Below are positions 6,930-39,617 of a DNA stretch of 64,000 nt, piece after piece. The stretch spans positions 621,844 to 685,843 of the forward strand of contig NZ_OCNH01000002.1 in assembly GCF_900230225.1 (NCBI RefSeq), read 5' to 3'. Under the pieces are notes generated by a model. It was not told the DNA's origin, searched no databases, and saw only the letters and a list, made by a program, of their open reading frames with translations. Position 1 is the stretch's first letter. Every line of letters begins with the position of its first letter. The translations under genes and the position numbers were made by a program. The stretch is from Spirosoma fluviale. Lineage in GTDB: Bacteria > Bacteroidota > Bacteroidia > Cytophagales > Spirosomataceae.

Positions 6930-6945
6930 CCCAAATGTTGTACCA
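6930..6945 (-). promoter_or_regulatory. Sigma-54-like promoter A (P2 operon)
   Basis: The minus strand reads TGGTACAACATTTGGG: the -24 GG is present and TTG is correctly placed for the -12 element, although the last C of GC is G. The 15 bases TGGTACRRCATTTGG match promoters F and G with only AA for GG at positions 7-8. The tandem dyad begins 52 bp upstream. Confidence 0.65.
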
Positions 6946-6997
6946 GTATTGTAAGTTATTGTGCGTCAATGGTATACGTGTAATTTTGAACGTCCGC

Positions 6998-7034
6998 TGT
7001 CCGGTATCGGACAGCGGACGTTCAGGAACGGACA
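6998..7034. promoter_or_regulatory. Tandem dyad enhancer site A
   Basis: Gene-proximal dyad 6998-7013 is a perfect TGTCC-N6-GGACA. The distal dyad 7019-7034 is CGTTC-N6-GGACA, 21 bp away start to start. The proximal dyad is nested in a 30-bp perfect palindrome, 6991-7020, so a third half-site CGTCC also lies on the gene side. Confidence 0.75.
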
Positions 7035-7074
7035 GGGGAGTTTACAGTTGGCCCGGCCATCGCGCTATAACAAA

Positions 7075-7099
7075 ACAGGCCACCCAGTAGGTGGCCTGT
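7075..7099 (-). terminator. Hairpin terminator after the 7161 gene
   Basis: Ten-bp arms ACAGGCCACC (7075-7084) and its complement (7090-7099) with a 5-nt loop follow the stop of the secreted-protein gene and precede enhancer site A. It would separate that gene from the P2 operon. Confidence 0.65.
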
Positions 7100-7160
7100 G
7101 TACAAAGAGGAAGATATAAACGGTGAAAAGAAACCAGAGTGAACAGGTAATCAGCCTCAT

Positions 7161-7736
7161 TTACTGATTTCCGGTTTTAATGCCGAAACTCCGTTCGGTG
7201 TCTTTGATGATGGCCTGTTTTTCGCGCTCGGTTTTACCAACCACATTGGCCGTCCGCTCGATGACCAACTCTTCGCCATCTTTCTGAAACGTGTACTGCA
7301 TCCAGAGTCGTCCGTTTTCCTTGTCTTCTTTGACTAATACCGACGAGGGTGCTATATCACTCGGCGACAAGCTCGACGATGCGTGGGCTTCCATGCGAGC
7401 CGCCCGGTTGTCTGAATCAGACGTGTAAATAATTGTATTCTCTTCTTTTTTCGTGCTCCGGCTACCACGCCTGGGTTCCGTTGCCACCACCAGAGAGCCC
7501 TCCGAGGAAACCCGGTCGAGGGAGTCGATGATGTGATTTTCGAGGGCTTTTACGGCTTTATCGTCCATATCCGTTACGTCGAACGAGCGACGGTAATGGA
7601 TGGAGCGATCAGGCTGCTCTATGTCAATGCGGATACGAAGTTGCCGACCATCGGTCGTGACGTGTTTGCTGGACGACCGTTGTGCGAACGCGCTGAAACC
7701 AACCGTAAGCAGTAACAGGGTAAATAGCGTTTTCAT
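7161..7736 (-). CDS. Secreted hypothetical protein, 191 aa
   Basis: A clear signal peptide (MKTLFTLLLLTVGFSAFAQ, cleavage after residue 18) precedes a charged, soluble domain with no Cys and no further membrane helix. The middle is rich in Arg and Ser (RRGSRSTKKEEN) and the C-terminal part has beta-like strands (RLWMQYTFQKDGEELVIE). I recognise no family. Its promoter is sigma-54 region B, the same dyad-plus-promoter element that drives the permeases, so it is probably a periplasmic or surface partner of that system rather than a bystander. It ends in a terminator at 7075-7099 and is therefore monocistronic. Confidence 0.8.
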   Translation of the reverse strand: MKTLFTLLLLTVGFSAFAQRSSSKHVTTDGRQLRIRIDIEQPDRSIHYRRSFDVTDMDDKAVKALENHIIDSLDRVSSEGSLVVATEPRRGSRSTKKEENTIIYTSDSDNRAARMEAHASSSLSPSDIAPSSVLVKEDKENGRLWMQYTFQKDGEELVIERTANVVGKTEREKQAIIKDTERSFGIKTGNQ

Positions 7737-7782: not shown

Positions 7783-7798
7783 ATCCATGATCATGCCA
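7783..7798 (-). promoter_or_regulatory. Sigma-54-like promoter B (7161 gene)
   Basis: The minus strand reads TGGCATGATCATGGAT: the -24 element is good, but the -12 element is TGG instead of TTG, the weakest of the seven. Its gap to the dyads is exactly 52 bp, as in regions A and C. The predicted leader is about 37 nt. Confidence 0.55.
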
Positions 7799-7850
7799 GC
7801 TATATATCTTGTTGATTTATAGTCTGTTATTGGTTGTTATGTATGTTCTG

Positions 7851-7887
7851 TGTCCGCTATCGGACAAATTTTGTACGACAGCGGACA
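7851..7887. promoter_or_regulatory. Tandem dyad enhancer site B
   Basis: The proximal dyad 7851-7866 is a perfect TGTCC-N6-GGACA. The distal dyad 7872-7887 is TGTAC-N6-GGACA, after a 5-bp spacer. The TGTAC variant on the gene-facing half of the distal dyad recurs in sites D and E. The site begins 9 bp past the end of the deleted permease relic. Confidence 0.75.
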
Positions 7888-7896
7888 GGCCCGTTT

Positions 7897-8227
7897 CTAT
7901 TCCGATCGTAACGATTTTACCGGGTTCATCAGGGCGGCTTTTACGCTCGCGGCAGAACTCGGTTACTTCCGGAAATTCCCTTTTGGTGAGTGTGCCTATT
8001 GCCGGAGCCATGTCCGACCAGATGTCGCCCTCTTTGGTTTGCGTGAGCATTCGGTAGAGGGTTGGCAGGTTTTTGTGGAATGTATTTACCGACCGCTCGT
8101 AGGCAACATATTCCAGAATGAAAGCAAAGGTGGCAATACCCAACGCCAGCCCGGCCATGTTAATGAGCGAGAAGACCCGGCTTTTCCGGAGTGTACGCAG
8201 AGCAATTTTCAGGTAGTTAAGAAACAT
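7897..8227 (-). pseudogene. Internally deleted FtsX-like permease relic
   Basis: From the ATG at 8227 the frame encodes the first 95 or so residues of a permease: MFLNYLKIALRTLRKSR, TM1, then the start of the extracytoplasmic domain through EFPEVTEFCRE, like EVADFCRMQ in P3. It then jumps, out of frame, to the family C-terminus: the frame one base away reads VKAALMNPVKSLRSE and ends with TAG at 7897-7899. About 690 codons of a normal gene are missing and the junction breaks the frame. The original frame runs on through enhancer site B to 7817, which is not a credible protein end. Promoter C and its dyads are intact, so an N-terminal single-TM peptide could still be made. Confidence 0.9.
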
Positions 8228-8351: not shown

Positions 8352-8388
8352 TGTCCGTAAATGGACAAGAACTGTCCGTTAATGAAAG
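8352..8388. promoter_or_regulatory. Tandem dyad enhancer site C
   Basis: The proximal dyad 8352-8367 is a perfect TGTCC-N6-GGACA. The distal dyad 8373-8388 keeps TGTCC but has GAAAG in the outer half. The 21-bp register is kept. Confidence 0.7.
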
Positions 8389-11917: not shown

Positions 11918-11937
11918 GCGTGTCTATTCTTTTTGGT

Positions 11938-11945
11938 TATCTTTG
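11938..11945 (+). promoter_or_regulatory. Candidate -7 box for the Uma2-like gene at 11977
   Basis: TATCTTTG matches TAnnTTTG, 31 bp before the ATG. The paralogue at 44642 has TAGATTTG at 19 bp before its ATG. No -33 element is obvious in the 59-bp divergent gap. Confidence 0.4.
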
Positions 11946-11976
11946 ATTAGTAATTGCATACAAAATCAGGCAGGCA

Positions 11977-15009: not shown

Positions 15010-17409
15010 TTATTCTGATCGCAATGACCTTACCGGATTCATCAGGGCAGCTTTTACACTCTGGAAACTCACGGTTAGCAAGGCAATGCCGATGGCCAGC
15101 AAACCGGCCAGCGCGAAGACCCACCAGGCCATGTCGACCTTGTAGGCGAAATCCTGTAGCCATCTGTCCATAGCATACCAGGCCAGCGGTGAGGCAATGA
15201 CAATGGCGATAATCACCAGCTTTAGAAAGTCTTTGGAGAGTAGCGCAACAATACTCGTGACCGATGCCCCAAGTACTTTCCGGACGCCAATTTCTTTCGT
15301 GCGCTGCTCAGCCGTGAACGTCGCCAGCCCGAACAGACCCAGACAGGCGATAAAAATGGCCATGCTCGAAAAAGCCAGAAACAAGTTGCCTTTTCGCTCG
15401 TCGGCGCGGTACTGGTCGGCGAACGTCTGGTCCAGAAACGTGTAGTCAAAAGGCTGATTCGGGTTTATTGTTTTGTAAGTAGTCTCGACGGAAGCCAGTG
15501 CGGCCGCTACGTTCTGCGGCTTTACGCGAATTAGCAGTTTGTCGCCCCGATCTTCGTGTAGCACCAGAACTAAAGGCTCAATTTTATTCCGCAGAGAACG
15601 TAAATGAAAATCGCGGATGACGCCCGCAATGGGTATCCGCTTTTCGTTAAACTCCACCAAACCGGCCGTCCGATTTTTCCAGCCAAGCCGGTCAAGCATG
15701 GCTTCATTAACGAGCACTGCCCCTATCGAATCGCTCGCCAGATCGGGCGAGAAGTTGCGCCCCTCTTTTAGGCGGATCTGTAGGACGGCCAGAAAATCAT
15801 GATCCACGGAGAAATACTCGGTACTGACGGACTGTTCTTTGCCGCTTGCCGTGTAAAAACTAAAGGTGGTTTTGTCATTCATGTCGCCACCAACCGACCC
15901 ATTCGTCAGGCTAACCCGTTCAATGGCGGGGTTTTGTTGCAATTTCTCTTTCAGAACACCGACCGACCGCTGAACATCAGGAGATTTGAGCGATAGCGCA
16001 ATAACCTGTTCCTGATTAAAGCCTAGCTGTGTATGCCGCATATACTGCAACTGCCGATAGACGACGAGTGTACCCACGATCATGATGATCGATATCGTGA
16101 ACTGCAAAACAACCAGCGACTTTCGCAGTAAAAGCCCGCTACTGCTCGTAGAAAAGGCTCCTTTCAGCACCGTTACCGGATTGAATCGAGCTAGGAAAAA
16201 GGCGGGGTAAAGGCCACTAATCAGGCCGATCAGCAAACCGAAACCAAGGAGCAAACCAATAACTTGCGGCTGCCACAGGTCAATAGACAACGATTTGGCG
16301 GCCAGCGAATTGAAGAACGGCAGGATTGCCTGCATCAGTAGCAGACTAACGAGGAGAGCCAGCATCGTCAGCAGGGTCGATTCGGCGAGAAACTGTCCAA
16401 TCAACTGCCAGCGTAATGAACCAACTGCTTTCCGAATGCCGATTTCCCGGGCTCGCCCCGCCGACCGGGCCGTTGCCAGATTTACGTAATTGACAATAGC
16501 GATCAGCAGAATAAACAGACCAATAACTGAGAACGTATACACGTAGGCGATGTTTCCGCCGTTTCCTGCGCCCACCCCCATTAAGTGCGACGAGTGCAAA
16601 TGCATGGCTGACAGGGGTTGAAACGTCATCAGGAATGTAACCCCTTTACCCGTGTCATCACCGATGGCCCGGGCAATGTACTTTTTGTAGAAAGCGGGCA
16701 TCTTGCCTTCTAACTGGCGGGCATTGCTGTTGGGATGAAGCTGGACGTAAGTAGCTGATCCAAAATTATCCCACTTATCGATGTTGATCCTGTTGAGCCG
16801 CGTATTGCTGTAGGGTAGAATAGCCTCGAAGCTCAGGTGATGATTGGCCGGTACGTCGTCGAGCACACCAGCCACCGTTAGGAATTGTTCGTCTTTTACG
16901 CGGACCGGTTTACCAAGCAGCCCTGTGGTTCGACCAAAAAGAGCCATTGCCAGTTTACGGGTTAGCACGACACTATTGGGTGTCAATGTCGTGGTATGTG
17001 GACTACCCTCGATGAATGAATAGTCAAAAAAGGAGAATAGGGTTGAATCGGCATAGATGACGCTATTGGCATACAGGGCTTTGTTGCCTGTACGCAAGAG
17101 TAATCCATTATCCGTTTTGACCCGTAGTACGTTCCTGATCTCGGGGTATTCCTGCCGAAGCGTCGGCCCCATTGGCGCTGAACCAATGGCCATATTCATG
17201 TCATTGCCTTCCCATTTGACATTCACATTTAACCGGTAAATGTTGGCCGCGTTGGCGTGGTATTGGTCGAACGTTAGCTCGTCATAGACATAAAGCCCCA
17301 GCAGTAAAGCACAGGTCATGCCACTAGCCAGCCCCAATAGGGTAAGGGCGCTGTAGGTCTTGTTGCGAATAATATTTCGCCAGGCGATTTTAATGTAACT
17401 GGTTAGCAT
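15010..17409 (-). CDS. ABC-type FtsX/MacB-like permease P5
   Basis: A 799-aa paralogue starting MLTSYIKIAWRNIIRNKT. The first FtsX unit is AIVNYVNLATARSAGRAREIGIRKAVGSL, with Val-Asn-Tyr in place of the usual Ile-Asn-Phe; the second is TAEQRTKEIGVRKVLGAS. It ends ALMNPVRSLRSE with a TAA stop. It is the first gene behind sigma-54 region D, whose enhancer is one helical turn further away than in the other regions. The predicted leader is about 80 nt, longer than elsewhere. P4 follows through R3. Confidence 0.93.
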   Translation of the reverse strand: MLTSYIKIAWRNIIRNKTYSALTLLGLASGMTCALLLGLYVYDELTFDQYHANAANIYRLNVNVKWEGNDMNMAIGSAPMGPTLRQEYPEIRNVLRVKTDNGLLLRTGNKALYANSVIYADSTLFSFFDYSFIEGSPHTTTLTPNSVVLTRKLAMALFGRTTGLLGKPVRVKDEQFLTVAGVLDDVPANHHLSFEAILPYSNTRLNRINIDKWDNFGSATYVQLHPNSNARQLEGKMPAFYKKYIARAIGDDTGKGVTFLMTFQPLSAMHLHSSHLMGVGAGNGGNIAYVYTFSVIGLFILLIAIVNYVNLATARSAGRAREIGIRKAVGSLRWQLIGQFLAESTLLTMLALLVSLLLMQAILPFFNSLAAKSLSIDLWQPQVIGLLLGFGLLIGLISGLYPAFFLARFNPVTVLKGAFSTSSSGLLLRKSLVVLQFTISIIMIVGTLVVYRQLQYMRHTQLGFNQEQVIALSLKSPDVQRSVGVLKEKLQQNPAIERVSLTNGSVGGDMNDKTTFSFYTASGKEQSVSTEYFSVDHDFLAVLQIRLKEGRNFSPDLASDSIGAVLVNEAMLDRLGWKNRTAGLVEFNEKRIPIAGVIRDFHLRSLRNKIEPLVLVLHEDRGDKLLIRVKPQNVAAALASVETTYKTINPNQPFDYTFLDQTFADQYRADERKGNLFLAFSSMAIFIACLGLFGLATFTAEQRTKEIGVRKVLGASVTSIVALLSKDFLKLVIIAIVIASPLAWYAMDRWLQDFAYKVDMAWWVFALAGLLAIGIALLTVSFQSVKAALMNPVRSLRSE

Positions 17410-17500: not shown

Positions 17501-17516
17501 GTCAAATGCTTTGCCA
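17501..17516 (-). promoter_or_regulatory. Sigma-54-like promoter D (P5-P4 operon)
   Basis: The minus strand reads TGGCAAAGCATTTGAC, with intact TGGCA and TTG elements in register. The gap to the dyads is 62 bp, ten more than in regions A-C. A hairpin terminator occupies most of that gap. Confidence 0.65.
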
Positions 17517-17523
17517 AACTATG

Positions 17524-17557
17524 AAAATAGCCCATCCGGTCTGGAATGGGCTATTTT
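17524..17557 (-). terminator. Hairpin between enhancer D and promoter D
   Basis: Arms AAAATAGCCCATCC (17524-17537) and its near complement (17543-17557, one bulged base) end in a T-run on both strands. It would stop readthrough from P6 just before promoter D. Confidence 0.7.
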
Positions 17558-17578
17558 TGAGAAAAGACGAATTTGCTT

Positions 17579-17615
17579 TGTCCAGAATCGGACAGGGTTT
17601 GTACGTTCGTGGACA
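17579..17615. promoter_or_regulatory. Tandem dyad enhancer site D
   Basis: The proximal dyad 17579-17594 is a perfect TGTCC-N6-GGACA. The distal dyad 17600-17615 is TGTAC-N6-GGACA. The site begins 24 bp beyond the P6 stop codon. Confidence 0.75.
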
Positions 17616-17639: not shown

Positions 17640-20261
17640 TTACTCCGACCGCAAACTTTTCACAGGGTCCGTCAACGCGGCTCTTACACTCTGGAAACTG
17701 ACCGTAAGCAACGTAAGCAATAACGTACCTGCACCCGTCAGGGCAAAGACCCACCACGCAATGGTGGTGCGATAGGTGTAATGCTGTAGCCAGTTGTTCA
17801 AAAGGTACCAGGCAATGGGCGTAGCAATGCCAATCGAAATCAGGACCAGCACGATAAAATCTCTGGAAAGCAGTCCCCATAGGTTCATCACCGAGGCTCC
17901 CAGCACTTTGCGGACACCGATCTCTTTGGTACGCTGCTCGGCTATAAAGGAAGCCAAACCGAAAATGCCAAGGCAGGAAATAAAGATAGCGAAGGCCGCA
18001 AAGATCATGGCCAGATTGCCGATACGGGTTTCTTTGCCAAATTTTTTGCCGTATTCATCATCCACAAACGTATACTCGAACGGAGCCGCCGGGTTGTATT
18101 GCTTGAACACCTCCGCCACTTTCTCAAGGGCCTGACTGGTTGCTACTTGTGGCGCTAGCTTAAGGGTGATGATGTTCACATTCCTGTAGTCTATTACGAA
18201 AAACGAAGGCTGTATCGCTTCAAACGGGTTGCCGTTGATAATGTCTTTCACGATGCCAATAACCCGGTATTCGCGGCCGCTTTGCTTGATCAACGTGCCG
18301 AGTGGCCGGGTCAGACCCATTAACTTCAGGGCCGATTCGTTCAGTATCATCGCCGATGAATCGGTGGTATACGCCCTTGAGAAATCGCGCCCGGCTGTCA
18401 GTTGCCAGTCTATGGTTTTGCCAAAATCGTGCGTAACCAGATTGGAAATAATCAAGGGGTGCATGTCGGGCGTTTTGCCCGGCCATGAAATATCGGTTGT
18501 GCCGCCGTAGTCCGCCGTTAACGACTTATCCGATTCCGACATGTTGGCAACGGCGCCCGTGTTTAGTAAATCGGTTCGCAACGGATTGTATCGGCCAACT
18601 AATTCGGGGGTATTTATCCTGACCTCAATGAGTCTGTTGCGGCTGTACCCAACCGGCCGATCTTTGGCAAACTCAATCTGGCGCAACACGATAATGGTGC
18701 CGATGATGAGTGTAATGGACACGGCAAACTGAAAAACGACCAGCACTTTACGGGGAATAGCCGCCAAACGCCCCATTCTGATGGTTCCTTTCAGGACTTT
18801 TATGGGCTGGAAAGACGACAGGTACAACGCCGGATAACTGGCCGCAATCAGCCCGGTGAGCAGCGTAAATCCCAGGCCGATCAACCAGAATATCGGGCTG
18901 AACCATAAAATCTGTACGTGTTTATCCGCAATGGTGTTAAACAGCGGCAGCGACAGCTGAACCAGCACCAGGGCCAGTACAAACGCTAGTCCCGTCACCA
19001 AAAGCGACTCGGCAAAAAACTGGCTGATGAGCTGTCCCCGTAGCGAACCAACGGCCTTGCGGATACCCACTTCTTTGGCGCGTTTCTCGCTTCGGGCCGT
19101 GCTCAGATTCATAAAGTTGATGCAGGCCAGCAGCAAGACGAACACCCCAATAATCCCAAACAGCCACACAAACTGAATGAGTCCACCCGTATTGACCCCG
19201 TTTTTGAAATCGGAGTACAAATGCCACTTCGCCATTGGGTGCAGAAAAAATTCGGGCTTGTAGGGCGGTGGATTTTCCCGTTTCATCCGAATATCCTTGA
19301 TTCTGGCCGAAGCCTGATCGGCCGAAACCCCGTTCTTGAGTTGTACATAAATCGGGAACCCATTACTGTCCCATTGATCTTGCTGGCCTTTCGCATTCTC
19401 GTTAATCGCCATCAACAGACGCCAGGGAGCCAGAAAAAGCGTGGCTTTAAAGCTGCTGTTCTGCGGGAAATCTTCGTAGATTCCCGTTACCCGAACGTTT
19501 ACCTTGTTGTCGAGTTTGATGAGCTTGTTGAGTGGATCAGCCGTACCGAATAAGGTTTTAGCGGTAGATGCCGATAGTAAAATGCTGTTGACATCCGTTA
19601 AGCCCCTGTAAGTACCGACCAGCATCTTCACCGACATCATCGGTAAGAAATCAGACTCCACATAGTTGCCCGTTTTAGTGAATCGGTTTTCGCCCGAAGC
19701 CAGCACCGCCGTACGATCGAATGAGGCCAGACTGACCAGGTCGAAATCGGGGTATTTGCTGCGAAGTTCCTGGGCTAGCGGGATGGGTAACGAATTGTAT
19801 GATGTCTTCTCGACATCGAACGTCACAAACTGCCAAAGCTGGGCAATGCGGTCGTAGTGTTTGGTTTGTCGGTCAAAAGACAGTTCGTCGTAAACCCACA
19901 GGCCAATCATGATCGTTACGGCCATGCCCGTTGCCAGTCCGCTAATGTTGATGAAGGAATAAATTTTGTTCTTGGTGAGGTTTCGCCAGGCGATTTTGAG
20001 ATAGTTGCGGATCATAGCGGGATGCAGGGGAGAATAGTGTTCGTATTGTTGTTTCGCTTGTTTTCGTCGTCGCACAAAAGGTGGTAGTACCGATACCACG
20101 TTGAGCACATACCGGAGCGTGGCCTGGGTCTTGCCCGCGCGGGTATGCCAGTGCGCATAGAGTTCGTCCAGATCGCCGGCCACTTCTTCGAGGGTATTCT
20201 CGGGGTGCAGTTGCCGGAGCAACCAGTGCACCCAGCGCGGTGGGGTAGGGTTGGATTTCAT
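17640..20261 (-). CDS. Permease P6 with N-terminal permease-prefix domain
   Basis: An 873-aa member with an extra cytoplasmic N-terminus of about 82 residues (PPRWVHWLLRQLHPENTLEEVAGDLDEL) that matches the permease prefix domain found in PadR-linked transporters. The normal family start (MIRNYLKIAWRNLTKNK) appears at residue 83. FtsX motifs are ACINFMNLSTARSEKRAKEVGIRKAVGSL and IAEQRTKEIGVRKVLGAS, with the tail ALTDPVKSLRSE. The ATG at 20261 overlaps the PadR stop as ATGA, which fixes the start and implies translational coupling. A start at 20303 would lie deep inside padR and is rejected. The prefix domain plus coupling suggests that PadR and P6 work as one regulatory-transport unit. Confidence 0.93.
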   Translation of the reverse strand: MKSNPTPPRWVHWLLRQLHPENTLEEVAGDLDELYAHWHTRAGKTQATLRYVLNVVSVLPPFVRRRKQAKQQYEHYSPLHPAMIRNYLKIAWRNLTKNKIYSFINISGLATGMAVTIMIGLWVYDELSFDRQTKHYDRIAQLWQFVTFDVEKTSYNSLPIPLAQELRSKYPDFDLVSLASFDRTAVLASGENRFTKTGNYVESDFLPMMSVKMLVGTYRGLTDVNSILLSASTAKTLFGTADPLNKLIKLDNKVNVRVTGIYEDFPQNSSFKATLFLAPWRLLMAINENAKGQQDQWDSNGFPIYVQLKNGVSADQASARIKDIRMKRENPPPYKPEFFLHPMAKWHLYSDFKNGVNTGGLIQFVWLFGIIGVFVLLLACINFMNLSTARSEKRAKEVGIRKAVGSLRGQLISQFFAESLLVTGLAFVLALVLVQLSLPLFNTIADKHVQILWFSPIFWLIGLGFTLLTGLIAASYPALYLSSFQPIKVLKGTIRMGRLAAIPRKVLVVFQFAVSITLIIGTIIVLRQIEFAKDRPVGYSRNRLIEVRINTPELVGRYNPLRTDLLNTGAVANMSESDKSLTADYGGTTDISWPGKTPDMHPLIISNLVTHDFGKTIDWQLTAGRDFSRAYTTDSSAMILNESALKLMGLTRPLGTLIKQSGREYRVIGIVKDIINGNPFEAIQPSFFVIDYRNVNIITLKLAPQVATSQALEKVAEVFKQYNPAAPFEYTFVDDEYGKKFGKETRIGNLAMIFAAFAIFISCLGIFGLASFIAEQRTKEIGVRKVLGASVMNLWGLLSRDFIVLVLISIGIATPIAWYLLNNWLQHYTYRTTIAWWVFALTGAGTLLLTLLTVSFQSVRAALTDPVKSLRSE

Positions 20262-20596
20262 ACCCCGCCGAGTTGGAGTGAGTGGGGTGGAACCAGCTGC
20301 CACAACTCCTGCCGAAGCTGCTGAATCTCCTGCAACGCCCGGCTACCCAAGGCCGTAACCCGGAACAGCCGCTTGCGCCGACCACCCCGTTCGGCGGTGG
20401 CTCCGCCCAGTTCAGAGTTCACAAAGCCTTTCTCTTCCAGCCTGATGAGGGTGTTGTGGACGGTCCCGAAAGTAACCACCCGGCCCGTGTGCTCTTCCAA
20501 TGCCTGACTGACCGTAACGCCGTAGCCTTCGCCATCCAGAATGGCTACCATCAGCAGTACCACTTCTTCAAACTCGCCTAAATAGGTTCGACGCAT
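20258..20596 (-). CDS. PadR-family winged-helix transcriptional regulator
   Basis: A 112-aa PadR protein: FEEVVLLMVAILDGEGYGVTVSQALEEHTGRVVTFGTVHNTLIRLEEKGFV is the typical winged helix, followed by the basic wing (ERGGRRKRLFRVTALG) and a short C-terminal helix. PadR proteins generally repress neighbouring transporter genes and are released by small ligands. Its stop overlaps the start of P6. It is the first gene behind sigma-54 region E, with a predicted leader of about 20 nt, so this regulator is itself under the array-wide activator. Its own operator is not identified here. Confidence 0.92.
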   Translation of the reverse strand: MRRTYLGEFEEVVLLMVAILDGEGYGVTVSQALEEHTGRVVTFGTVHNTLIRLEEKGFVNSELGGATAERGGRRKRLFRVTALGSRALQEIQQLRQELWQLVPPHSLQLGGV

Positions 20597-20626: not shown

Positions 20627-20642
20627 TACAAATCAGTTGCCA
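20627..20642 (-). promoter_or_regulatory. Sigma-54-like promoter E (PadR-P6)
   Basis: The minus strand reads TGGCAACTGATTTGTA, a good -24/-12 pair (TGGCA and TTGTA). The gap to the dyads is 53 bp. Confidence 0.7.
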
Positions 20643-20649
20643 AAGCCAA

Positions 20650-20682
20650 AAAAGGGCTATTCCGTTGAGAAATAGCCCTTTT
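20650..20682 (-). terminator. Hairpin terminator between enhancer E and promoter E
   Basis: Perfect 12-bp arms AAAAGGGCTATT (20650-20661) and its complement (20671-20682), loop of 9 nt, followed on the minus strand by a T-run at 20648-20653. It would block transcripts arriving from P7 while leaving DNA looping possible. Confidence 0.75.
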
Positions 20683-20695
20683 AGGTAGTAGCTGT

Positions 20696-20732
20696 TGTCC
20701 GTTTTTGGACAGTTTTTGTACGATCCTGGACA
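20696..20732. promoter_or_regulatory. Tandem dyad enhancer site E
   Basis: The proximal dyad 20696-20711 is a perfect TGTCC-N6-GGACA. The distal dyad 20717-20732 is TGTAC-N6-GGACA, 21 bp apart start to start. Confidence 0.75.
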
Positions 20733-23254: not shown

Positions 23255-23262
23255 AAGTGTAT

Positions 23263-23417
23263 GTAGAGCCGCAACCCTTTGCGGCTCCTGTGCGTCAGCA
23301 ATTTTAGCGTCTACAAAGACCATCCGGTGTAAGAACCATCTGGATAGAACCATCTGGACAAAACCATCCGGTGTAAAAACCATCCGGTTGCCGAGACGCA
23401 AAGTATTGCGTCTCTAC
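23263..23417. repeat. Composite palindromic repeat R5 between P8 and P7
   Basis: The outer hairpins are GTAGAGCCGC... at the P7 end and ...GCGTCTCTAC at the P8 end. The interior holds five copies of ACCATCYGG (starts 23319, 23335, 23349, 23363, 23379) at 14-16-bp spacing, the longest such run in the repeat family. The element begins 9 bp from the P7 ATG. Confidence 0.85.
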
Positions 23418-23421
23418 ATAC

Positions 23422-25800: not shown

Positions 25801-25804
25801 ATGT

Positions 25805-25896
25805 GTAGAGCCGCAATACCTTGCGGCTGTTTTTGGCGATACCTTGCGGCAATAAAAACCATCCGGATGCTGAGACGCAAGGTATTGCGTCTCTAC
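25805..25896. repeat. Composite palindromic repeat R6 between P9 and P8
   Basis: The left arm starts GTAGAGCCGCAATACC and the right arm is ...GGTATTGCGTCTCTAC, so the two ends pair except for CC/AC changes and look chimeric. AACCATCCGGATGCTG is inside. It ends 6 bp before the P9 stop and begins 5 bp from the P8 ATG. Confidence 0.87.
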
Positions 25897-25902
25897 TCGT
25901 CC

Positions 25903-28323: not shown

Positions 28324-28331
28324 GTGTTTAT

Positions 28332-28426
28332 GTAGAGCCGCAATACCTTGCGGCTCCTGTGCGTCAGCAATTTTAGCGTCTACAAAAACCATCCGGTTGC
28401 CAAGACGCAAAGTATTGCGTCTCTAC
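28332..28426. repeat. Composite palindromic repeat R7 between P10 and P9
   Basis: The head is GTAGAGCCGCAATACC, the interior GCGTCAGCAATTTTAGCG and ACCATCCGGTTG, and the tail hairpin ends GCGTCTCTAC. Its interior is almost identical to the first part of R5. It starts 9 bp from the P9 ATG and ends 4 bp before the P10 stop codon. Confidence 0.87.
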
Positions 28427-28430
28427 ATAC

Positions 28431-30869
28431 CTATTCCGATTTCAACGATTTTACGGGGTTCACCAGCGCGGCTTTTACGCTTTGGTAACTGACTGTCAGC
28501 AGGGTAATGGCAATGGCCAGCACGCCCGCTAAGGCGAACATCCACCAGGCTATGTCAATTTTATACGCGAAACCCTGTAGCCATTGGGTCATGACCCACC
28601 AGGATACGGGCACCGCCAGCAGCAGGGCAATACCCACGAGTTTCAGAAAATCTCTCGACAGTAACGACACAATACCAGCTACGGATGCGCCGAGGACTTT
28701 GCGCACGCCAATCTCTTTGGTGCGTTGCTCCGCCGTGAACATGGCCAGCCCAAACAGGCCCAGACAGGCGACAAAAATCGTCAGACCGGCAAAAATGCCC
28801 AGGATAAGCCCCGTTTTCTGTTCGGCGCGGTAGGTGGTGTTGAAGCGTTCGTCGAGGAAAGCATAATTGAACGGGGCATCGGTGGTGAACTGATTCCACT
28901 GGGTTTTCAACGAGGCCAGTAACCCGGAAATATCCTTGGCCTTGACCTTTATGATCACCGTGCCCCCCGTGTGGCCCAGCGTCATCACCAGCGGAGAGAT
29001 GCGCTCATGCAGCGATTTGAAGTGGAAGTCTTTCACCACGCCAATGACCCGGTAGGTCATGACCTTGCCGTCCTGATTTGCCCGGCTTACAGTATGCCCC
29101 AGTGCATTTTTCGCCCAGCCCAACGTTCGGGCCGCCGTTTCGTTCAGAATGATCCCCGACGAGTCGGTACCGTATGTTTTGGCGAAATTACGCCCGGCCG
29201 CCAGTTGAATGCCCAGCGTTGGGATGTAGTCGTAATCGACATCGTACCGAAGTGTTTTGACGATCTGGGTTGTATTGGATTCCGGGTAAACGAAGAAATT
29301 GTTGTTATTGCCGGGACCAGCGGGCAGGTAACCCGACGTGCTGACGTTCACCACCCGCGAATCCTGCATGAGTTGATTCCGGAATGCCTCTTCGTTCTTA
29401 CCCAGCAGCCAGGTTTCGGGCAGTACCAGCACCTGATCTTTGTCGTAGCCCAGTTTCTTGTTCTGGATGTAGCCAAGCTGCCGGTACACCACCGTCGTGC
29501 TGACCATGAGCGTGATGGAGATAAAAAACTGAACCACCACTAGCCCGCTCCGTAAGCTGAGGCTGTTGCGGCCACCCGTAAATCGGGTGCCTTTGAGTAC
29601 CGATATGGGTTTGAACGACGAGAGGAAGAACGCCGGATAACTGCCCGCCAGCAGCCCAACCAGCAAGCCAAAGAGCAATAGACCCGGCACCAGCCAGGGC
29701 GACGCCGTAAAGTTCAGCGTCAGGTTTTTCTCCGCCAGTTCATTGAAGGCGGGGAGCGCCAGATAGACCAGACCAATAGCGAGCAGCAGCGAAATGGCCG
29801 TCAGCAAGAGGGATTCGACCAGGAATTGGACTGTCAGCGCTTGTTTTACCGACCCCAGCACTTTCCGGATACCCACCTCTTTGGCGCGTTTGGAAGCACC
29901 GGCCGTAGACAGGTTCATGAAATTGATGCACGCAATGAGCAGGATAAACAGCGCGATAGCGCCGGAAATGTAAACGTACTGGATATTCCCGCTCGGGCTC
30001 AGGTCGTAGGCAAAATCGGAACGCAGGTGAATATCCGTCAGCGGTTGCAGATACAAGCCAATATCATTGCCCTTCTGCCGGAACTGCGCCAGCGTCATGC
30101 CCATTGACTTCTGGAGTTGCGGCCCCATGTATTTCTCGACAACCTGCGGTAGTTTGGCTTCGAGTTGCTTGTAGTCGTAGCCTTTGGGTAATACCAGATA
30201 GGTGAAAAATTCCGATGTCATCCAGGAAGTGCTTTTGGCTTCCGGCAAGCTGGTCATAGACAGAAACAGGTCGAAATGAAAGTGCGAATTGGTGGGAACC
30301 TGATCGATGACCCCCGTTATCTGATACGTAGCATTCCAGCTTTTCAGGGTAATCACCTTCCCGATGGGGTCCTGATTGCCGAAATACTTGCTGGCCATTG
30401 CCTGCGTAATAACCGCCGTGTTGGGTCGGGTCAAAGCCGTTTTGGCGTTCGATCCGGCATCCTGACCCCTGAGCAGGGGTACCGTGAACACCTGGAAAAA
30501 GTTGGAGTCGACAAATGCCGTAGCCGCATCCCTGAACGTCCGGTTATTCACCGTTATGACCGGATTGCCCGCCAAACGCAGCCGGGTAGCTTCCTCTACT
30601 TCGGGGTAATCGGCTTTGAGGGTCTGGGCCGTGGGCGGCATCACGTGCGCTTCGTTCATCTTGCCCCCCGCCGACGAGCCCCGGAAAACCACCCGCACAA
30701 TCCGGTCGGCCTTTTCGTTGAAGCGGTCGTAGCTCAGTTCGTCGAGCACGAACAGGCTGATGAGCAGGCACGTCGCCAGCCCAATGGCCAACCCCGCGAT
30801 GTTGATCGCCGAGAAGGCTTTGTTGCGGATCAGATTCCGCCAGGCGATTTTGATGTAGTTTGTGAGCAT
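28431..30869 (-). CDS. ABC-type FtsX/MacB-like permease P10
   Basis: An 812-aa paralogue starting MLTNYIKIAWRNLIRNKA, with ACINFMNLSTAGASKRAKEVGIRKVLGSV, TAEQRTKEIGVRKVLGAS and the tail SYQSVKAALVNPVKSLKSE (Tyr for the usual Phe). The first extracytoplasmic domain is longer than average in the segment around QLQKSMGMTLAQFRQKGND. It is the second gene of the P11-P7 run, 96 bp after P11 with R8 filling the junction. R8 begins 5 bp from its ATG, so the hairpin foot would sit at the ribosome-binding region. Confidence 0.93.
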   Translation of the reverse strand: MLTNYIKIAWRNLIRNKAFSAINIAGLAIGLATCLLISLFVLDELSYDRFNEKADRIVRVVFRGSSAGGKMNEAHVMPPTAQTLKADYPEVEEATRLRLAGNPVITVNNRTFRDAATAFVDSNFFQVFTVPLLRGQDAGSNAKTALTRPNTAVITQAMASKYFGNQDPIGKVITLKSWNATYQITGVIDQVPTNSHFHFDLFLSMTSLPEAKSTSWMTSEFFTYLVLPKGYDYKQLEAKLPQVVEKYMGPQLQKSMGMTLAQFRQKGNDIGLYLQPLTDIHLRSDFAYDLSPSGNIQYVYISGAIALFILLIACINFMNLSTAGASKRAKEVGIRKVLGSVKQALTVQFLVESLLLTAISLLLAIGLVYLALPAFNELAEKNLTLNFTASPWLVPGLLLFGLLVGLLAGSYPAFFLSSFKPISVLKGTRFTGGRNSLSLRSGLVVVQFFISITLMVSTTVVYRQLGYIQNKKLGYDKDQVLVLPETWLLGKNEEAFRNQLMQDSRVVNVSTSGYLPAGPGNNNNFFVYPESNTTQIVKTLRYDVDYDYIPTLGIQLAAGRNFAKTYGTDSSGIILNETAARTLGWAKNALGHTVSRANQDGKVMTYRVIGVVKDFHFKSLHERISPLVMTLGHTGGTVIIKVKAKDISGLLASLKTQWNQFTTDAPFNYAFLDERFNTTYRAEQKTGLILGIFAGLTIFVACLGLFGLAMFTAEQRTKEIGVRKVLGASVAGIVSLLSRDFLKLVGIALLLAVPVSWWVMTQWLQGFAYKIDIAWWMFALAGVLAIAITLLTVSYQSVKAALVNPVKSLKSE

Positions 30870-30873
30870 ATGT

Positions 30874-30961
30874 GTAGAGCCGCAATATCTTGCGGCTGTT
30901 TCTGGTCTATTGTCTGGTAAAAACCATCCGGGTGCTGAGACGCAAAGTATTGCGTCTCTAC
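30874..30961. repeat. Composite palindromic repeat R8 between P11 and P10
   Basis: The head is GTAGAGCCGCAATATC, the interior AACCATCCGGGTGCTG, and the tail ...GCGTCTCTAC. It is organised like R6 and starts 5 bp from the P10 ATG; the tail ends 4 bp before the P11 stop codon. Confidence 0.87.
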
Positions 30962-30965
30962 ATGC

Positions 30966-33371
30966 CTATTCCGACCGTAACGATTTGACCGGATTCATCA
31001 GGGCTGCTTTCACGCTTTGAAAACTTACGGTTAATAAGGCTATAAAAATTGTCAGGCTACCGGCCAGCAGGAACACCCACCAATGGATATCGGTGCGGTA
31101 GGCGAAGTCGCTGAGCCAGGTATGCATGGCGTACCAGGCAACGGGCGAGGCAATGACCAGCGCTATCAAGACCAGTTTCATAAAATCCTGGGAGAACAGC
31201 GCTACCAGACTCGCTTCCGATGCGCCGAGTACTTTCCGAATCCCGATCTCCTTGGTGCGCTGCTCCGCCATGAACATCGACAGGCCAAACAAACCGAGGC
31301 ACGAAATTAAGATAGCCACCCCTGCGAAGATGCTGAATAGCGTTTGCTGCGTTTGCTCGCGGGCGTAGAGCCGGTCGAAACGGGTATCCAGAAACTGGTA
31401 ATCGAACGGACGTTGTGGGAAATAGCTTTTCCAGACCGATTCGACCTGTTGAATACCCGCTGTAACATTTCCTTTGAGCGGGATGGAAATCCAATTAAGT
31501 TGACGGGGCGTCAGAATCATAGCCAGTGCGGCTACCTGCTGGTGCAAAGACTCGAAGTGATAATCTTTCGTGACGCCGATGATCTGGCCTTTGGCGGGGC
31601 CATACTGAAACGGCTTGCCGATGGCCTGTTCGGGTGTCCAGCCCAACTGACGCGCGGCCGTCTCGTTCAGCACCACCATCGAGGTATCGGTGGAGTAATC
31701 GCGGGAGAAGTTGCGCCCGGCGGCCATGCCGATCTGATAGGCGGGAATAAAGTCGTAATCGACGCGTAGTCCCCGCAGGTTGATTTTCACCGGGGCCATG
31801 CTGTCCCCTTTCATGGCCATTGCACCGTACGAATCGAGCAGCCGACCCGACGGTACCCGCGACGAGCGGCCCATGTCGCGCACGGCACCCGTTCGCAGGA
31901 GTTGCTGTTTGAGGGTTTCGTAATTCGTTGTCGAATCGCCAATGTCGGGCATGAGCAGCACCTGATCTTTCGCGTAGCCTAGGCGGTAATTCTGAATGTA
32001 CTTCATCTGGTTATAAACAACCGCCGTGCTGATAATGAGCGCGATGGCAATGGCGAACTGCGTGACGACCAGCACCTGACGCAGTTTACCCGTCCGCATG
32101 GTCGACGCAATCTGCCCTTTCAGTACGCCCAACGGCCGGAAGGAGGTGAGGAAGAAAGCGGGGTAACTACCGGCCACCAAGCCTGTCAGCAACGTAATGC
32201 CAACCAGAACACTTAAGAAGACGGGGTCGAGCAGTTGCTGAAACGACAGTTGTTTCTGGGTGAAGGCGTTCAGGGCCGGGAGGCACAGGATCAACAATAG
32301 GATGGCAATGCCTAAGGCAAACGTGACGAGGAGAATGGATTCGCTCAAAAACTGCCCAATGAGTTGGGAACGCAAAGCCCCTACAACCTTGCGCATCCCA
32401 ACCTCTTTGGCCCGCCCCGCCGACCGGGCTGTTGCCAGATTCATGTAGTTGATGCAGGCAATGAGCAGAATGAATAAACCAATGGCCGAAAATAAATAGA
32501 TATAACTCATGTCGCCGGTCGGTTCTATCTCCGAATCGGTATGCGACTTCAGGTGAATATCCGTGAGTTTTTGCAGGTTCAGCACCGAAAAAGCGGAGGC
32601 CTTGCGCCCTTCTTCGGCCGGAACATACTTGTCCTGAAAGCTCGGAAACGCAGCTTCCATTCGCTGTGGATTAGCATTGGGCTTCAGGAGCACGTAGGTA
32701 TTAAATGAGTTGTTGCTCCAACTGGTCCGAAGCTGTTCAGCGCCGTAAACGCGGTTGTCGTTGAAGGTCGAAAACGACAGTAAAAAGCTGGGGTGAAAAT
32801 GCGATTGCGCGGGCAAGGGTTCAAACACGCCCGTTACGGTCAGGTCGAACTGGTCATTCAGCCGAACGGTTTTACCGACTGGATTTTCGTTACCAAAATA
32901 CTTCTCCGCCATGGGCCGCGAGAACATAATTGAAAACGGATTTACCAGGGCCTGATCCGGGTTGCCGCTAATCAGGTCAAAATCGAACACCTTGAACAGA
33001 TTCGCTTCGGCAAAGAACATATCGTCCTCATTGAACGAGTGTTCGCCGTATTTGACCAGCCCCCCATTGTCAATCGTTCGTACAACCTGTTCGGCTTCGG
33101 GAAAGTCCTGTTTTATAAGCGGGCCAAAAGGTGGTGCCGCCTGCGCCAGCCGCAGGGAAGCCGTACCTTCCGATGACAGGAACGTTCGCGTAAGGCGGTA
33201 CGTCCGGTCGGCATGTGTGTTGTAGCGGTCGTAACTGAGTGCGTCCTGCACATACAGCGCAATGAGCAGGAAACACGCCAGCCCTACCGCAACGCCCGTA
33301 ATGTTGATGAAGCTGAATGATTTATGTTTCCGCAAATTGCGAAAGGCGATGAGGAAATAGTTTCGCAGCAT
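30966..33371 (-). CDS. ABC-type FtsX/MacB-like permease P11
   Basis: An 801-aa paralogue starting MLRNYFLIAFRNLRKHKS, with ACINYMNLATARSAGRAKEVGMRKVVGAL, MAEQRTKEIGIRKVLGAS and the tail ALMNPVKSLRSE. It is the first gene behind sigma-54 region F, with a leader of only about 27 nt and no palindromic repeat before the start. It heads the longest uninterrupted permease run in the window (P11, P10, P9, P8, P7), about 12.6 kb. All five are on one strand, with junctions of 95-170 bp that are mostly repeats and contain no further dyad or -24/-12 element. Confidence 0.93.
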   Translation of the reverse strand: MLRNYFLIAFRNLRKHKSFSFINITGVAVGLACFLLIALYVQDALSYDRYNTHADRTYRLTRTFLSSEGTASLRLAQAAPPFGPLIKQDFPEAEQVVRTIDNGGLVKYGEHSFNEDDMFFAEANLFKVFDFDLISGNPDQALVNPFSIMFSRPMAEKYFGNENPVGKTVRLNDQFDLTVTGVFEPLPAQSHFHPSFLLSFSTFNDNRVYGAEQLRTSWSNNSFNTYVLLKPNANPQRMEAAFPSFQDKYVPAEEGRKASAFSVLNLQKLTDIHLKSHTDSEIEPTGDMSYIYLFSAIGLFILLIACINYMNLATARSAGRAKEVGMRKVVGALRSQLIGQFLSESILLVTFALGIAILLLILCLPALNAFTQKQLSFQQLLDPVFLSVLVGITLLTGLVAGSYPAFFLTSFRPLGVLKGQIASTMRTGKLRQVLVVTQFAIAIALIISTAVVYNQMKYIQNYRLGYAKDQVLLMPDIGDSTTNYETLKQQLLRTGAVRDMGRSSRVPSGRLLDSYGAMAMKGDSMAPVKINLRGLRVDYDFIPAYQIGMAAGRNFSRDYSTDTSMVVLNETAARQLGWTPEQAIGKPFQYGPAKGQIIGVTKDYHFESLHQQVAALAMILTPRQLNWISIPLKGNVTAGIQQVESVWKSYFPQRPFDYQFLDTRFDRLYAREQTQQTLFSIFAGVAILISCLGLFGLSMFMAEQRTKEIGIRKVLGASEASLVALFSQDFMKLVLIALVIASPVAWYAMHTWLSDFAYRTDIHWWVFLLAGSLTIFIALLTVSFQSVKAALMNPVKSLRSE

Positions 33372-33408: not shown

Positions 33409-33424
33409 GCCAAATGCCGTACCA
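33409..33424 (-). promoter_or_regulatory. Sigma-54-like promoter F (P11-P7 run)
   Basis: The minus strand reads TGGTACGGCATTTGGC, identical to promoter G. The gap to the dyads is 53 bp. Confidence 0.65.
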
Positions 33425-33477: not shown

Positions 33478-33514
33478 TGTCCGCAAACGGACGCTGGACG
33501 TACAGTTGCGGACA
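33478..33514. promoter_or_regulatory. Tandem dyad enhancer site F
   Basis: The proximal dyad 33478-33493 is TGTCC-N6-GGACG and the distal dyad 33499-33514 is CGTAC-N6-GGACA, spacer 5 bp. All 37 bp are identical to site G. Confidence 0.75.
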
Positions 33515-37038: not shown

Positions 37039-37063
37039 GGCAGAAATCAGGATTTGCACCACG

Positions 37064-39445
37064 CTATTCATTTTGCAACGACTTGGCCGGATTCATCAGG
37101 GCGGCTTTCACACTCTGGAAACTCACCGTCAACAGGGCGATACTAACCGCCAGCAGCCCCGCCAGCGCAAAGACCCACCAGTCGATACTGATTTTATAGG
37201 CGAAATCCTGTAGCCATTGGGTCATGAGCCACCAGGAAACAGGCACGGCCAGGACAATGGCAATGCACACGGGTTTTAGAAAATCTCTCGATAGCAACGA
37301 CACAATGCTTGTTGCCGAGGCCCCCAGCACTTTGCGAACGCCAATCTCTTTGGTGCGACTTTCGGCAATAAAGGTAGCCAGCCCAAACAAACCCAGACAC
37401 GAAATCAGCACGGCCAGGGCTGCAAACAGACCAAACACCTGCCCCGTACGGACGTCGGTGCGGTAGGTGCGGGTGAAAAAATCATCAATAAACTCATAAT
37501 CGAAGGGCCAGTCGGGAAACGATTGCTTCCAAAGTCCTTCGATTTGCCGGACGGTAGCGGGCACAGCCCCCGGCCGTACTTTCACGGAGAGCATCCCCGC
37601 TGCACCGTCGGCTAATGAAAACGTCAGTGGCTCAATGGTATTCCTGAGGTTTTTCTGGTGGTAATCGGCCACCACGCCCACTACCGGGCCACGCTGCGGC
37701 ACTTCGCGGTAATTGCCGGTCTGGTCGTATTCAAAGGTGTAGTAGCCGAGCATCTTTCCCTTCAGGTTTTTCCAGCCGAAATACGCCATGGCTGCTTCGT
37801 TCACCAGAAATGCTTTTCGGTCGGCGGGGCGGCTGGCGTCCAGATTACGGCCCTGTTTCAGTTTAATATCGAATGTATTCAGGAAATCGTCGTCGATCAT
37901 CTGGCGGCTCATGCTTAAATCCGTAACCCCCGCCGGTGCGTAGTCGCTGACCAGTTTATCACCGATCAATGCGCCACTACCCGGTACACTATAACTCCGG
38001 GATGCCACGACAACGCCTGCTAATCGGTTTACCTGTTCCTTGAAACGCAGCTTGACCGGCTCTGCCGCATCGCGCAAGTCCATCACCAATACCTGTTCGC
38101 GGTTGTACCCCAACTGCTTATGCTGAATGTAGTCCAGTTGGGTATACACGACCAGCGTAGCCACAATCATGACAATCGACACGGCAAACTGCCCGATTAC
38201 CAGCGACTGCCGGAGTAAGGGCGTTTTGCGGCTCGTTGCCTGCCCTACGGCTCCTTTGAGAACCGAAGCGGGTCGGAATGACGAGAGCACAAAGGCGGGA
38301 TACCCCCCCGCCATCAGGCACAGCAGGCCGATACCTACCAGCAGCCAAAGTCCGTACGTGGGTGTAAACAGCGTCGACAGGACCAGATTTTTTTCGGCCA
38401 GTTGATTGAATGCGGGCACTAACGCTGGAACAATCAGCGCGGTAAGGGACAGCGCGAGCAGGATAAAGAGCAGCGTTTCGCCCATGAACTGGCGGGTCAG
38501 TTGCCCGAATGTAGAGCCGAGAACTTTCCGAACCCCCACTTCCTTCGCTCGTCCGGTAGCACGGGCCGTAGCCAGGTTTACGTAATTAAACGCGGCCAAC
38601 AGCAAAACCAGCAGGGCCACTATTGAAAAAATGGTGACGTAGGTTAGCCGGTTTGGGGCAATCAGATCGGTTTTGAGGTAGAGGTCGGTTAGCGGAATGA
38701 GGTGTAGTTTCCAAACGCCCACATTGGGGTCGTTAAGTTGTTTGAGATAGGCTGGAAACTGCGCTTCAACGGCTTCGGGTTTCGTGCCGGGGGCCAGCAG
38801 CAGGTACGTCCAGGCACTCCCGCCCCATAGATTGGTGGTTACGTCGTAGCCAACCAATTCATTGGCGTTGGCATAATTGGCCAGAAAGTCGATGTGGTGA
38901 TGCGAATTGCCCGGCAGGTTGCGCATAACCCCCGTTACGTGCAGGGTGTGTTTGGCGTCGTAGCGGATTCGCTGGCCGAGCGGGTTCTGACCCGGAAAGT
39001 ATTTCTGCGCCATGGCTTCGGAGATCACGACACCATACTGTTCCGTTAGCGCCGTGCGTGAATTTCCCTGGACAAGCGGCAATGTAAACACATCAAAGGC
39101 GGTGCTATCGGCAAAAAAGAAGTTGTCTTCGTAGGCGGATGTTGTTTGATGGGTAAGTAACGGACGTACTTTTTTGAGACGTACCACCTGCTCTACCTGG
39201 GCAAAACGTTGTTTGATGTCAGTGCCTAATTTCCCTCCGGATGTGGCATTGTTCTCGAATTGCTGGAGCAAAACAATCCGGTCGGCGTTCTGGTGGAATC
39301 GGTCGTAGGTAAGCTCATCGAATACATAAGCCGTAATCAGTAGGCCGCAGGTTAGTCCCAGCGTCAGGCCAATCAAATTGATAACGGTATACAGCTTATA
39401 CCGGTACAGGCTCCGCAGCGTGATTTTGATATAGTTTGTAAACAT
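37064..39445 (-). CDS. ABC-type FtsX/MacB-like permease P12
   Basis: A 793-aa paralogue starting MFTNYIKITLRSLYRYKL; the frame extends to 39499 but that extension is leader. It has AAFNYVNLATARATGRAKEVGVRKVLGST and IAESRTKEIGVRKVLGAS. The tail is ALMNPAKSLQNE, shared only with P1. It stands alone behind sigma-54 region G with a leader of about 55 nt. Its promoter region is a near-copy of that of P11, although the coding sequences differ considerably. P12 is separated from the rest of the array by the LRR-Roc-COR gene. Confidence 0.93.
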   Translation of the reverse strand: MFTNYIKITLRSLYRYKLYTVINLIGLTLGLTCGLLITAYVFDELTYDRFHQNADRIVLLQQFENNATSGGKLGTDIKQRFAQVEQVVRLKKVRPLLTHQTTSAYEDNFFFADSTAFDVFTLPLVQGNSRTALTEQYGVVISEAMAQKYFPGQNPLGQRIRYDAKHTLHVTGVMRNLPGNSHHHIDFLANYANANELVGYDVTTNLWGGSAWTYLLLAPGTKPEAVEAQFPAYLKQLNDPNVGVWKLHLIPLTDLYLKTDLIAPNRLTYVTIFSIVALLVLLLAAFNYVNLATARATGRAKEVGVRKVLGSTFGQLTRQFMGETLLFILLALSLTALIVPALVPAFNQLAEKNLVLSTLFTPTYGLWLLVGIGLLCLMAGGYPAFVLSSFRPASVLKGAVGQATSRKTPLLRQSLVIGQFAVSIVMIVATLVVYTQLDYIQHKQLGYNREQVLVMDLRDAAEPVKLRFKEQVNRLAGVVVASRSYSVPGSGALIGDKLVSDYAPAGVTDLSMSRQMIDDDFLNTFDIKLKQGRNLDASRPADRKAFLVNEAAMAYFGWKNLKGKMLGYYTFEYDQTGNYREVPQRGPVVGVVADYHQKNLRNTIEPLTFSLADGAAGMLSVKVRPGAVPATVRQIEGLWKQSFPDWPFDYEFIDDFFTRTYRTDVRTGQVFGLFAALAVLISCLGLFGLATFIAESRTKEIGVRKVLGASATSIVSLLSRDFLKPVCIAIVLAVPVSWWLMTQWLQDFAYKISIDWWVFALAGLLAVSIALLTVSFQSVKAALMNPAKSLQNE

Positions 39446-39511
39446 CGTAATGCCGACCGTTCCGGTTGGGTGTAAGTGGAACACATAGGAACAACGCAAC
39501 GATACCCCTAT

Positions 39512-39527
39512 GCCAAATGCCGTACCA
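39512..39527 (-). promoter_or_regulatory. Sigma-54-like promoter G (P12)
   Basis: The minus strand reads TGGTACGGCATTTGGC, the same 16 bases as promoter F, with a 53-bp gap to the dyads. Confidence 0.65.
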
Positions 39528-39580
39528 GTTTAATAACTAATTGGTTAGTAGTGGATTAGGTGTGGTAGGCTAGGGCGGAT

Positions 39581-39617
39581 TGTCCGCAAACGGACGCTGG
39601 ACGTACAGTTGCGGACA
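39581..39617. promoter_or_regulatory. Tandem dyad enhancer site G
   Basis: Proximal dyad 39581-39596 and distal dyad 39602-39617, identical over 37 bp to site F. The flanks are also alike on both sides, including AGTGCCGACCG downstream. Confidence 0.75.

Follow-up and report, generated by a model that had tools for sequence, protein, structure and literature searches.

Two-component regulons that depend on sigma-54 form a textbook class. Their activators, of the NtrC type, carry a receiver, an AAA+ domain and a Fis-type helix-turn-helix (HTH), and two dyads lie upstream of the -24/-12 promoter. Here we analyze a stretch of 64,000 nucleotides from Spirosoma fluviale (hereafter the window; contig NZ_OCNH01000002.1, our C8, positions 621844-685843, in a 7.8-Mb genome of 18 contigs), in which seven modules of this kind stand before genes for permeases and other proteins. 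Judging from sequence comparison, it is highly likely that all seven are sigma-54 promoters and that they share one activator, an NtrC-type response regulator that we call EBP-A.

Among described systems, the PrsK/PrsR regulon of PEP-CTERM proteins offers the same kind of layout. The relevant passages of PMC1569441 describe a sigma-54 response regulator, a 17-nt upstream motif, a spacer averaging 62.8 nt and a -24/-12 element, with a regulon spread over many genes and a regulator found by co-occurrence. In the same passages, however, motif 1 has TTTACA at its end and occurs as a repeat in some cases only, the hosts are Proteobacteria and the targets are PEP-CTERM genes. The best NCBIfam match of EBP-A is the PrsR family (TIGR02915), at 365 bits against a cut-off of 502.6, and thus below it. 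From the NtrC-type class in general, the EBP-A system differs in its operator and its targets, and EBP-A has GAFTDA in place of GAFTGA. CbrB of Pseudomonas putida is likewise a sigma-54 activator that uses several subsites, 20-25 bp apart from centre to centre and on one face of the helix, but these are described in excerpts of PMC6296734 as non-palindromic (TGTTAC/GTAACA) and variably spaced.

On the side of the target genes, a 2025 survey found sigma-54 promoters enriched for COG0577 FtsX-like permeases in Bacteroidia and other classes, and the passages available call this link the first evidence of its kind (PMC12316311). Those passages give no operator, cognate regulator or regulon, and the word Spirosoma does not appear in the main text. 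Annotation with RAST, in the part of PMC11573002 that concerns it, counts 28 and 33 ADOP-like permeases in two Dyadobacter genomes. Such permeases can be abundant, yet they lack a known function and an adjacent ATPase. Through a common regulator and operator they are connected with one adaptor and one ATPase, and this link offers a way to learn when they are produced and what drives them. The NCBIfam models of the darobactin exporter DarBCD and of ADOP match the adaptor, ATPase and permeases, although every match falls under its curated cut-off and the EBP-A system has many permeases for one ATPase. Among the matches listed from the open-licence literature, there was no description of the TGTCC operator, of EBP-A or of sigma-54 in Spirosoma. 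The mechanism is of a known kind, and the regulator, the operator, the phasing and the link between orphan permeases and a shared engine are the part that was not found in the literature searched.

Anatomy and conservation of the operator module

Direct reading of the window confirms the seven tandem dyads that an earlier note had pointed out (Table 1). Each consists of two 16-bp dyads and all face the minus strand. The first dyad had been given as TGTCC-N6-GGACA, which is exact in five of the seven (6998, 7851, 8352, 17579 and 20696), while those at 33478 and 39581 end in GGACG. Dyad starts are 21 bp apart in all seven, as had been claimed, but the claim that they always are fails elsewhere, where 22, 20 and 31 bp occur. 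The gene-facing half of the second dyad, described as often TGTAC, has these letters at 7851, 17579 and 20696; it reads CGTAC at 33478 and 39581 and CGTTC at 6998. At 8352 it is TGTCC, and the outer half of that dyad is degenerate (GAAAG). A TGGYA element follows each operator at the 52 to 62 bp expected from the note, and the -12 part is weak at one of them, 7851. The -24/-12 elements were scored against a general sigma-54 consensus.

A single dyad is not enriched in the window (24 matches at up to two mismatches, against 26.45 expected). A relaxed scan for tandem dyads with a -24/-12 element returns exactly the seven sites, each with at most three mismatches, and the same scan of 20 dinucleotide shuffles of the window gave none at five mismatches or fewer and 14 at six. 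The anatomy of the module, tandem dyads plus -24/-12, exceeds chance in the window.

Beyond the window, pattern searches of the genome located the tandem arrangement at C4:638241, C4:645133, C16:272518, C10:949890 and C8:700258, each with a -24/-12-like element in one direction, and two more sites with spacers of 4 and 6 bp in the C4 cluster (L032), for a total of 14 operator sites in the genome. C4:1639265 and C4:1684665 also match at three mismatches. The reversed pattern gave no matches in this genome. The pattern is found in 32 of 36 genomes of a genus sample, and in its strict form in 57 of 150 family genomes and 16 of 194 genomes sampled across the order, with the reversed control at 0 in all three samples. 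A looser TGTNC form reaches further, together with relatives of EBP-A.

Conservation of this sort bears on whether the modules have any current function or were copied along with the permeases by gene duplication. Operators 6 and 7 look like copies: their 37-bp sites are identical, 134 of 227 flanking bases agree in an ungapped alignment, and they are probably a duplicated pair, therefore leaving at most six independent sites in the window. A permease remnant follows operator 3, and what appears to be the remnant of a small secreted-protein gene follows C16:272518. Against this, the half-sites hardly change in 54 non-redundant sites, whereas most positions between them are variable, and the module is also met in many genera and in front of unrelated genes. 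Passive copying is therefore extremely unlikely, and we return to the reading of the modules as working sigma-54 promoters.

Their geometry was followed in the genus and in a survey of 73 sites (65 loci, 20 genomes), which include orthologues and are not all independent; the 54 mentioned above are what is left when near-identical ones are removed. When 0-25 bp were allowed between dyads, the genus scan gave at least 135 places (tallied from the list of matches, with both-strand matches taken once), with a spacer of 5 bp in 111, 6 bp in 22, and 4 and 15 bp in one each. These spacings place the dyad starts near two or three whole helical turns apart. The offset from dyad to -24 is bimodal in the 66 of the 73 sites whose -24/-12 element scores at least 15 on the sigma-54 consensus: 41 lie at 52-55 bp, 24 at 62-66 bp and one at 43 bp, with none at 56-61 bp. 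The dyads are also asymmetric, since in an unbiased subset (31 sites, three genomes) 22 sites deviate only at the distal inner half. A count over all sites (55/60) was dropped because the family pattern let only that half-site vary.

In 10 of the 66 sites, a hairpin, mostly terminator-like, fills the gap between operator and promoter, compared with 0 of 66 shuffled spacers. At these ten sites the enhancer would therefore be part of the 3' untranslated region of the gene that comes before.

A variant class at C4:37268, C8:910191 and C8:911022 (L035, L036), in which TGTCCC is directly repeated at a distance of 21 bp, was set aside, having no good -24/-12 element at the expected distance. Collagen-repeat genes follow two of the sites and an AraC-type gene adjoins one, and the three probably belong to a separate regulator with a similar-looking site.

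A candidate regulator and its paralogue

The genome has one copy of the RpoN gene and 13 Sigma54_activat matches, eight of them above 200 bits. The regulator had been noted as absent from the window, and comparative evidence now puts a candidate, EBP-A (C8:702216-703637), about 16 kb past its end. EBP-A combines a receiver, a sigma-54 AAA+ domain (Sigma54_activat) and a Fis-type HTH (HTH_8). These domains, the single RpoN and the good -24/-12 elements at 66 of 73 sites support the architecture proposed earlier, an NtrC-class activator working with sigma-54. About 2 kb from EBP-A is the site C8:700258, oriented towards a putative adaptor, ATPase and permease operon, and about 2.5 kb downstream of EBP-A is the histidine kinase HK-A (C8:706062-707489; HATPase_c and PAS). 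In many other genera the common order is HK-A, EBP-A, the operator, and then adaptor, ATPase and permease running the opposite way.

This arrangement was followed in 20 EBP-A loci from 17 other genera, where tandem dyads with a -24/-12 element are present in 14. A divergent adaptor gene occurs in at least 14 and an HK-A homologue in at least 15, both lower bounds because the loci span 7-8.5 kb each. Twenty genomes of two other genera (9/9 sampled in g16 and 11/13 in g31) have a perfect operator at a distance of 109-149 bp from the EBP-A match. With an EBP-A match defined by E <= 1e-110, 118 of the 150 family genomes are positive and 32 negative; the strict site occurs in 57 of the former and none of the latter (Fisher p = 2e-8, phylogeny ignored). 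Among the best 80 of 582 EBP-A relatives, which come from Spirosomataceae, Chitinophaga, Saprospiraceae, Bacteroidales and others, 49 have the looser TGTNC module in the roughly 300 bp that precede the EBP-A match, and the same scan of 307,733 control bases (gene body and downstream) returned one match. By these comparisons EBP-A is linked to the TGTCC operator across Bacteroidota, and it is most probably the missing regulator.

The motif GAFTDA replaces GAFTGA, the sigma-54 contact loop, in EBP-A, in its paralogue EBP-B and in 77 of the best 80 EBP-A relatives. The other six activators of the genome have GAFTGA or GSFTGA.

Should another of the eight sigma-54 activators read the sites, EBP-B (C4:2346518-2347870) would be a candidate. 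It is 44% identical to EBP-A, has a very similar HTH, and lies with its own kinase in a MacAB-like locus of adaptor, TolC, ATPase and permease; HK-A is the nearest relative of that kinase in the genome, after the kinase itself. Matches of the EBP-B type (44-47% identity to EBP-A) are found in 31 of 36 genus genomes, among the matches listed. However, TGTCC tandem sites occur at none of 21 EBP-B loci, and TGTGC-N6-GCACA-type dyads precede the adaptor gene at 15 of the 21 (found with half-sites relaxed a little, in the 330 bp ahead of the adaptor match; the control, TGTCC dyads only, gave 0/21). In this comparison, which covered EBP-A and EBP-B loci, the TGTCC module is linked to EBP-A instead, and we regard control by EBP-B or another of the activators as very unlikely. 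The recognition helix reads SRQALYRR or SRAALYRR in 24 of 29 EBP-A loci and TRFALYRR in 19 of 21 EBP-B loci. This match of helix to operator is a correlation rather than a demonstrated code, and the two pairs, EBP-A with TGTCC and EBP-B with TGTGC, provide a natural test of how Fis-type recognition helices select their sites.

Several observations weigh against the assignment of the modules to EBP-A and sigma-54. The site nearest to EBP-A in its own genome, C8:700258, is weak (three or four mismatches by scan), a glycosyltransferase-like gene lies between the two, and HK-A does not adjoin EBP-A there or in four other Spirosoma-genus genomes. The strict site is missing from 61 of the 118 EBP-A-positive family genomes, and no module match was found at 6 of the 20 panel loci and 31 of the best 80 relatives, Spirosoma and Fibrisoma records included. 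In 7 of the 49 module-positive relatives, the best match faces EBP-A itself, mostly at a shorter offset. The contrast with EBP-B is blurred as well: the tandem TGTGC form is present in only 4 of 21 EBP-B loci, and 8 of 20 EBP-A loci pass a swap control for TGTGC at up to four mismatches. These last are the same sites that fit TGTCC better, with one to three mismatches, and distant EBP-A members are not sharply separable by TGTCC versus TGTGC. Finally, 7 of the 73 surveyed sites have no good -24/-12 element and were left out of the offset count, some targets are not exporter genes, and the window permeases at 42206-44605 and 45162-47588 have no site.

Target genes and a possible shared exporter

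Most of the surveyed loci were picked for their operator and not for their genes. Of the 73 sites, 32 lie before a PadR gene (with a permease), 18 before a permease (one being the window remnant), three before an adaptor, three before an ATPase and one before EBP-A. Eight precede a small DUF3244-like secreted protein, one the 191-aa protein of the window, and seven other targets. These seven include a DUF4097 protein, an apparent gene remnant, a site cut by the end of its locus, and two sites before an opposite-strand permease (L173, L176), which were kept as other because the automatic orientation pointed away from it. The weak site C8:700258 (L031) missed the threshold of the survey and is not among the 73. 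The dyads are therefore not equally common before genes unrelated to permeases, the outcome that the earlier note had said would refute a permease regulon; permease targets dominate. The regulon had been described as permeases with a PadR regulator and a secreted protein, which stands, with the addition of adaptor, ATPase and small secreted-protein genes.

The frequency of PadR genes suggests another reader of the dyads, namely PadR-like proteins from the same operons, the likeness to -24/-12 being incidental. Nearly half of the sites, the 32 above, lie directly before a PadR gene. Nevertheless, a search of the 700 bp downstream found no PadR gene for the other 41, the sites sit at two fixed, helically phased distances upstream of the -24/-12 element and not over it, and in many Bacteroidota the adaptor operons adjacent to EBP-A have this module in front of them. 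A PadR operator is thus scarcely probable, and the target classes are better read with EBP-A as the activator.

The small secreted family (124-133 aa) is the commonest target outside the exporter genes, and the one member scanned has a sub-cut-off DUF3244 match. At C16:272518 (L033:10519), operator and promoter precede an apparent remnant of such a gene, as identified by eye.

The genome has 26 long ADOP-like matches, 14 in the window, four just beyond it, six in the C4 cluster and two elsewhere (from 30 matches, with the four shortest excluded). The regulon ATPase (C8:697967-698746) is one of 16 related matches in the genome at E < 1e-20; the remaining 15 all lie outside the window, the stretch just past it and the C4 cluster. 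The adaptor scores 201.2 bits on NF038010 (cut-off 450) and the ATPase 277.1 bits on NF038007 (cut-off 375), both below the cut-off.

Given the module, its conservation and phasing, its target classes and its linkage to EBP-A, all established from sequence, a mechanism may be proposed. HK-A would phosphorylate EBP-A, which would assemble on two dyads two helical turns apart, one dimer per dyad, and from about 55 or 65 bp upstream of -24 contact and open sigma-54 RNA polymerase. In this way it would turn on the adaptor (HlyD/DarC-like) and the ABC ATPase (DarD-like) near its own gene, as well as many ADOP-like double permeases without an adjoining ATPase across the chromosome, and small secreted proteins. 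The permeases may then use the co-regulated ATPase, the boldest and least supported step. More broadly, and tentatively, the operator may mark a modular exporter in which one adaptor and one ATPase serve as a shared engine for about 26 interchangeable orphan permeases, under one sigma-54 two-component system, ancient in Bacteroidota, with a regulon greatly expanded in Spirosoma and its relatives; we consider this possible but on balance doubtful. The exporter type allows a guess that envelope stress or a toxic compound is the inducing signal.

Genes behind the operators

Eleven or twelve of the 14 window permeases lie behind a site, either directly or in a same-strand run (putative operons). 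They are called ADOP-like because they align with TIGR03434 over nearly the full length but score under its cut-off (best 349.7 against 622.3 bits). The PadR-like protein behind operator 5 reaches the Pfam PadR threshold, while on TIGR03433, the PadR of ADOP loci, it scores 31.3 against a cut-off of 101.8 bits. The permease behind operator 1 must start further in, because the TTG start of its open reading frame (ORF), at 6969, lies upstream of the promoter.

Table 1. Operators, promoter elements and associated features (window positions unless a locus is named)
Feature	Coordinates	Strand	Remarks
Operator 1, tandem dyad	6998..7034	-	gene orientation TGTCC-N6-GAACG-N5-TGTCC-N6-GGACA
-24/-12-like element TGGTACAACATTTGGG	6930..6945	-	52 bp from operator 1
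Operator 2, tandem dyad	7851..7887	-	
-24/-12-like element TGGCATGATCATGGAT	7783..7798	-	52 bp from operator 2; weak -12
Operator 3, tandem dyad	8352..8388	-	distal dyad degenerate
-24/-12-like element TGGCACAGGAGTTGAA	8284..8299	-	52 bp from operator 3
Operator 4, tandem dyad	17579..17615	-	
-24/-12-like element TGGCAAAGCATTTGAC	17501..17516	-	62 bp from operator 4, hairpin between
Operator 5, tandem dyad	20696..20732	-	
-24/-12-like element TGGCAACTGATTTGTA	20627..20642	-	53 bp from operator 5, terminator-like hairpin between
Operator 6, tandem dyad	33478..33514	-	
-24/-12-like element TGGTACGGCATTTGGC	33409..33424	-	53 bp from operator 6
Operator 7, tandem dyad	39581..39617	-	37-bp site same as operator 6
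-24/-12-like element TGGTACGGCATTTGGC	39512..39527	-	53 bp from operator 7
ADOP-like MacB_PCD/FtsX permease	4471..6969	-	behind operator 1
191-aa protein	7161..7736	-	first gene behind operator 2; signal-peptide-like start (by eye), no Pfam match
ADOP-like permease remnant	7817..8227	-	behind operator 3; 136-aa ORF, sub-cut-off MacB_PCD match
ADOP-like permease	15010..17409	-	behind operator 4; 12475-14901 follows, same strand
PadR-like regulator	20258..20596	-	first gene behind operator 5
ADOP-like permease with permease prefix domain 2	17640..20303	-	after PadR
Five same-strand ADOP-like permeases	20804..33371	-	behind operator 6; gaps 20-102 bp, putative operon; members 30966-33371, 28431-30869, 25903-28410, 23422-25800, 20804-23401
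ADOP-like permease	37064..39499	-	behind operator 7
Hairpin gaps, window	17517..17578; 20643..20695		
Hairpin gaps, other loci			one site each in L032, L155, L157, L169, L183, L191, L194, L195
Small secreted-protein loci	L166, L168, L164, L163, L158, L152, L150, L034:9046-9447		

Other genes of the region were noted in passing. An LRR-Roc-COR (ROCO-type) protein of 1103 aa (33727-37038) is divergent from the permease run. The segments 9482-14901 and 42206-47588 share one layout, permease, 147-aa plus-strand ORF and permease, and a Uma2 match under the cut-off is seen in one of the two 147-aa ORFs. A 1276-aa protein with a TNT-domain match is encoded at L044:15951-19781, just upstream of the window.

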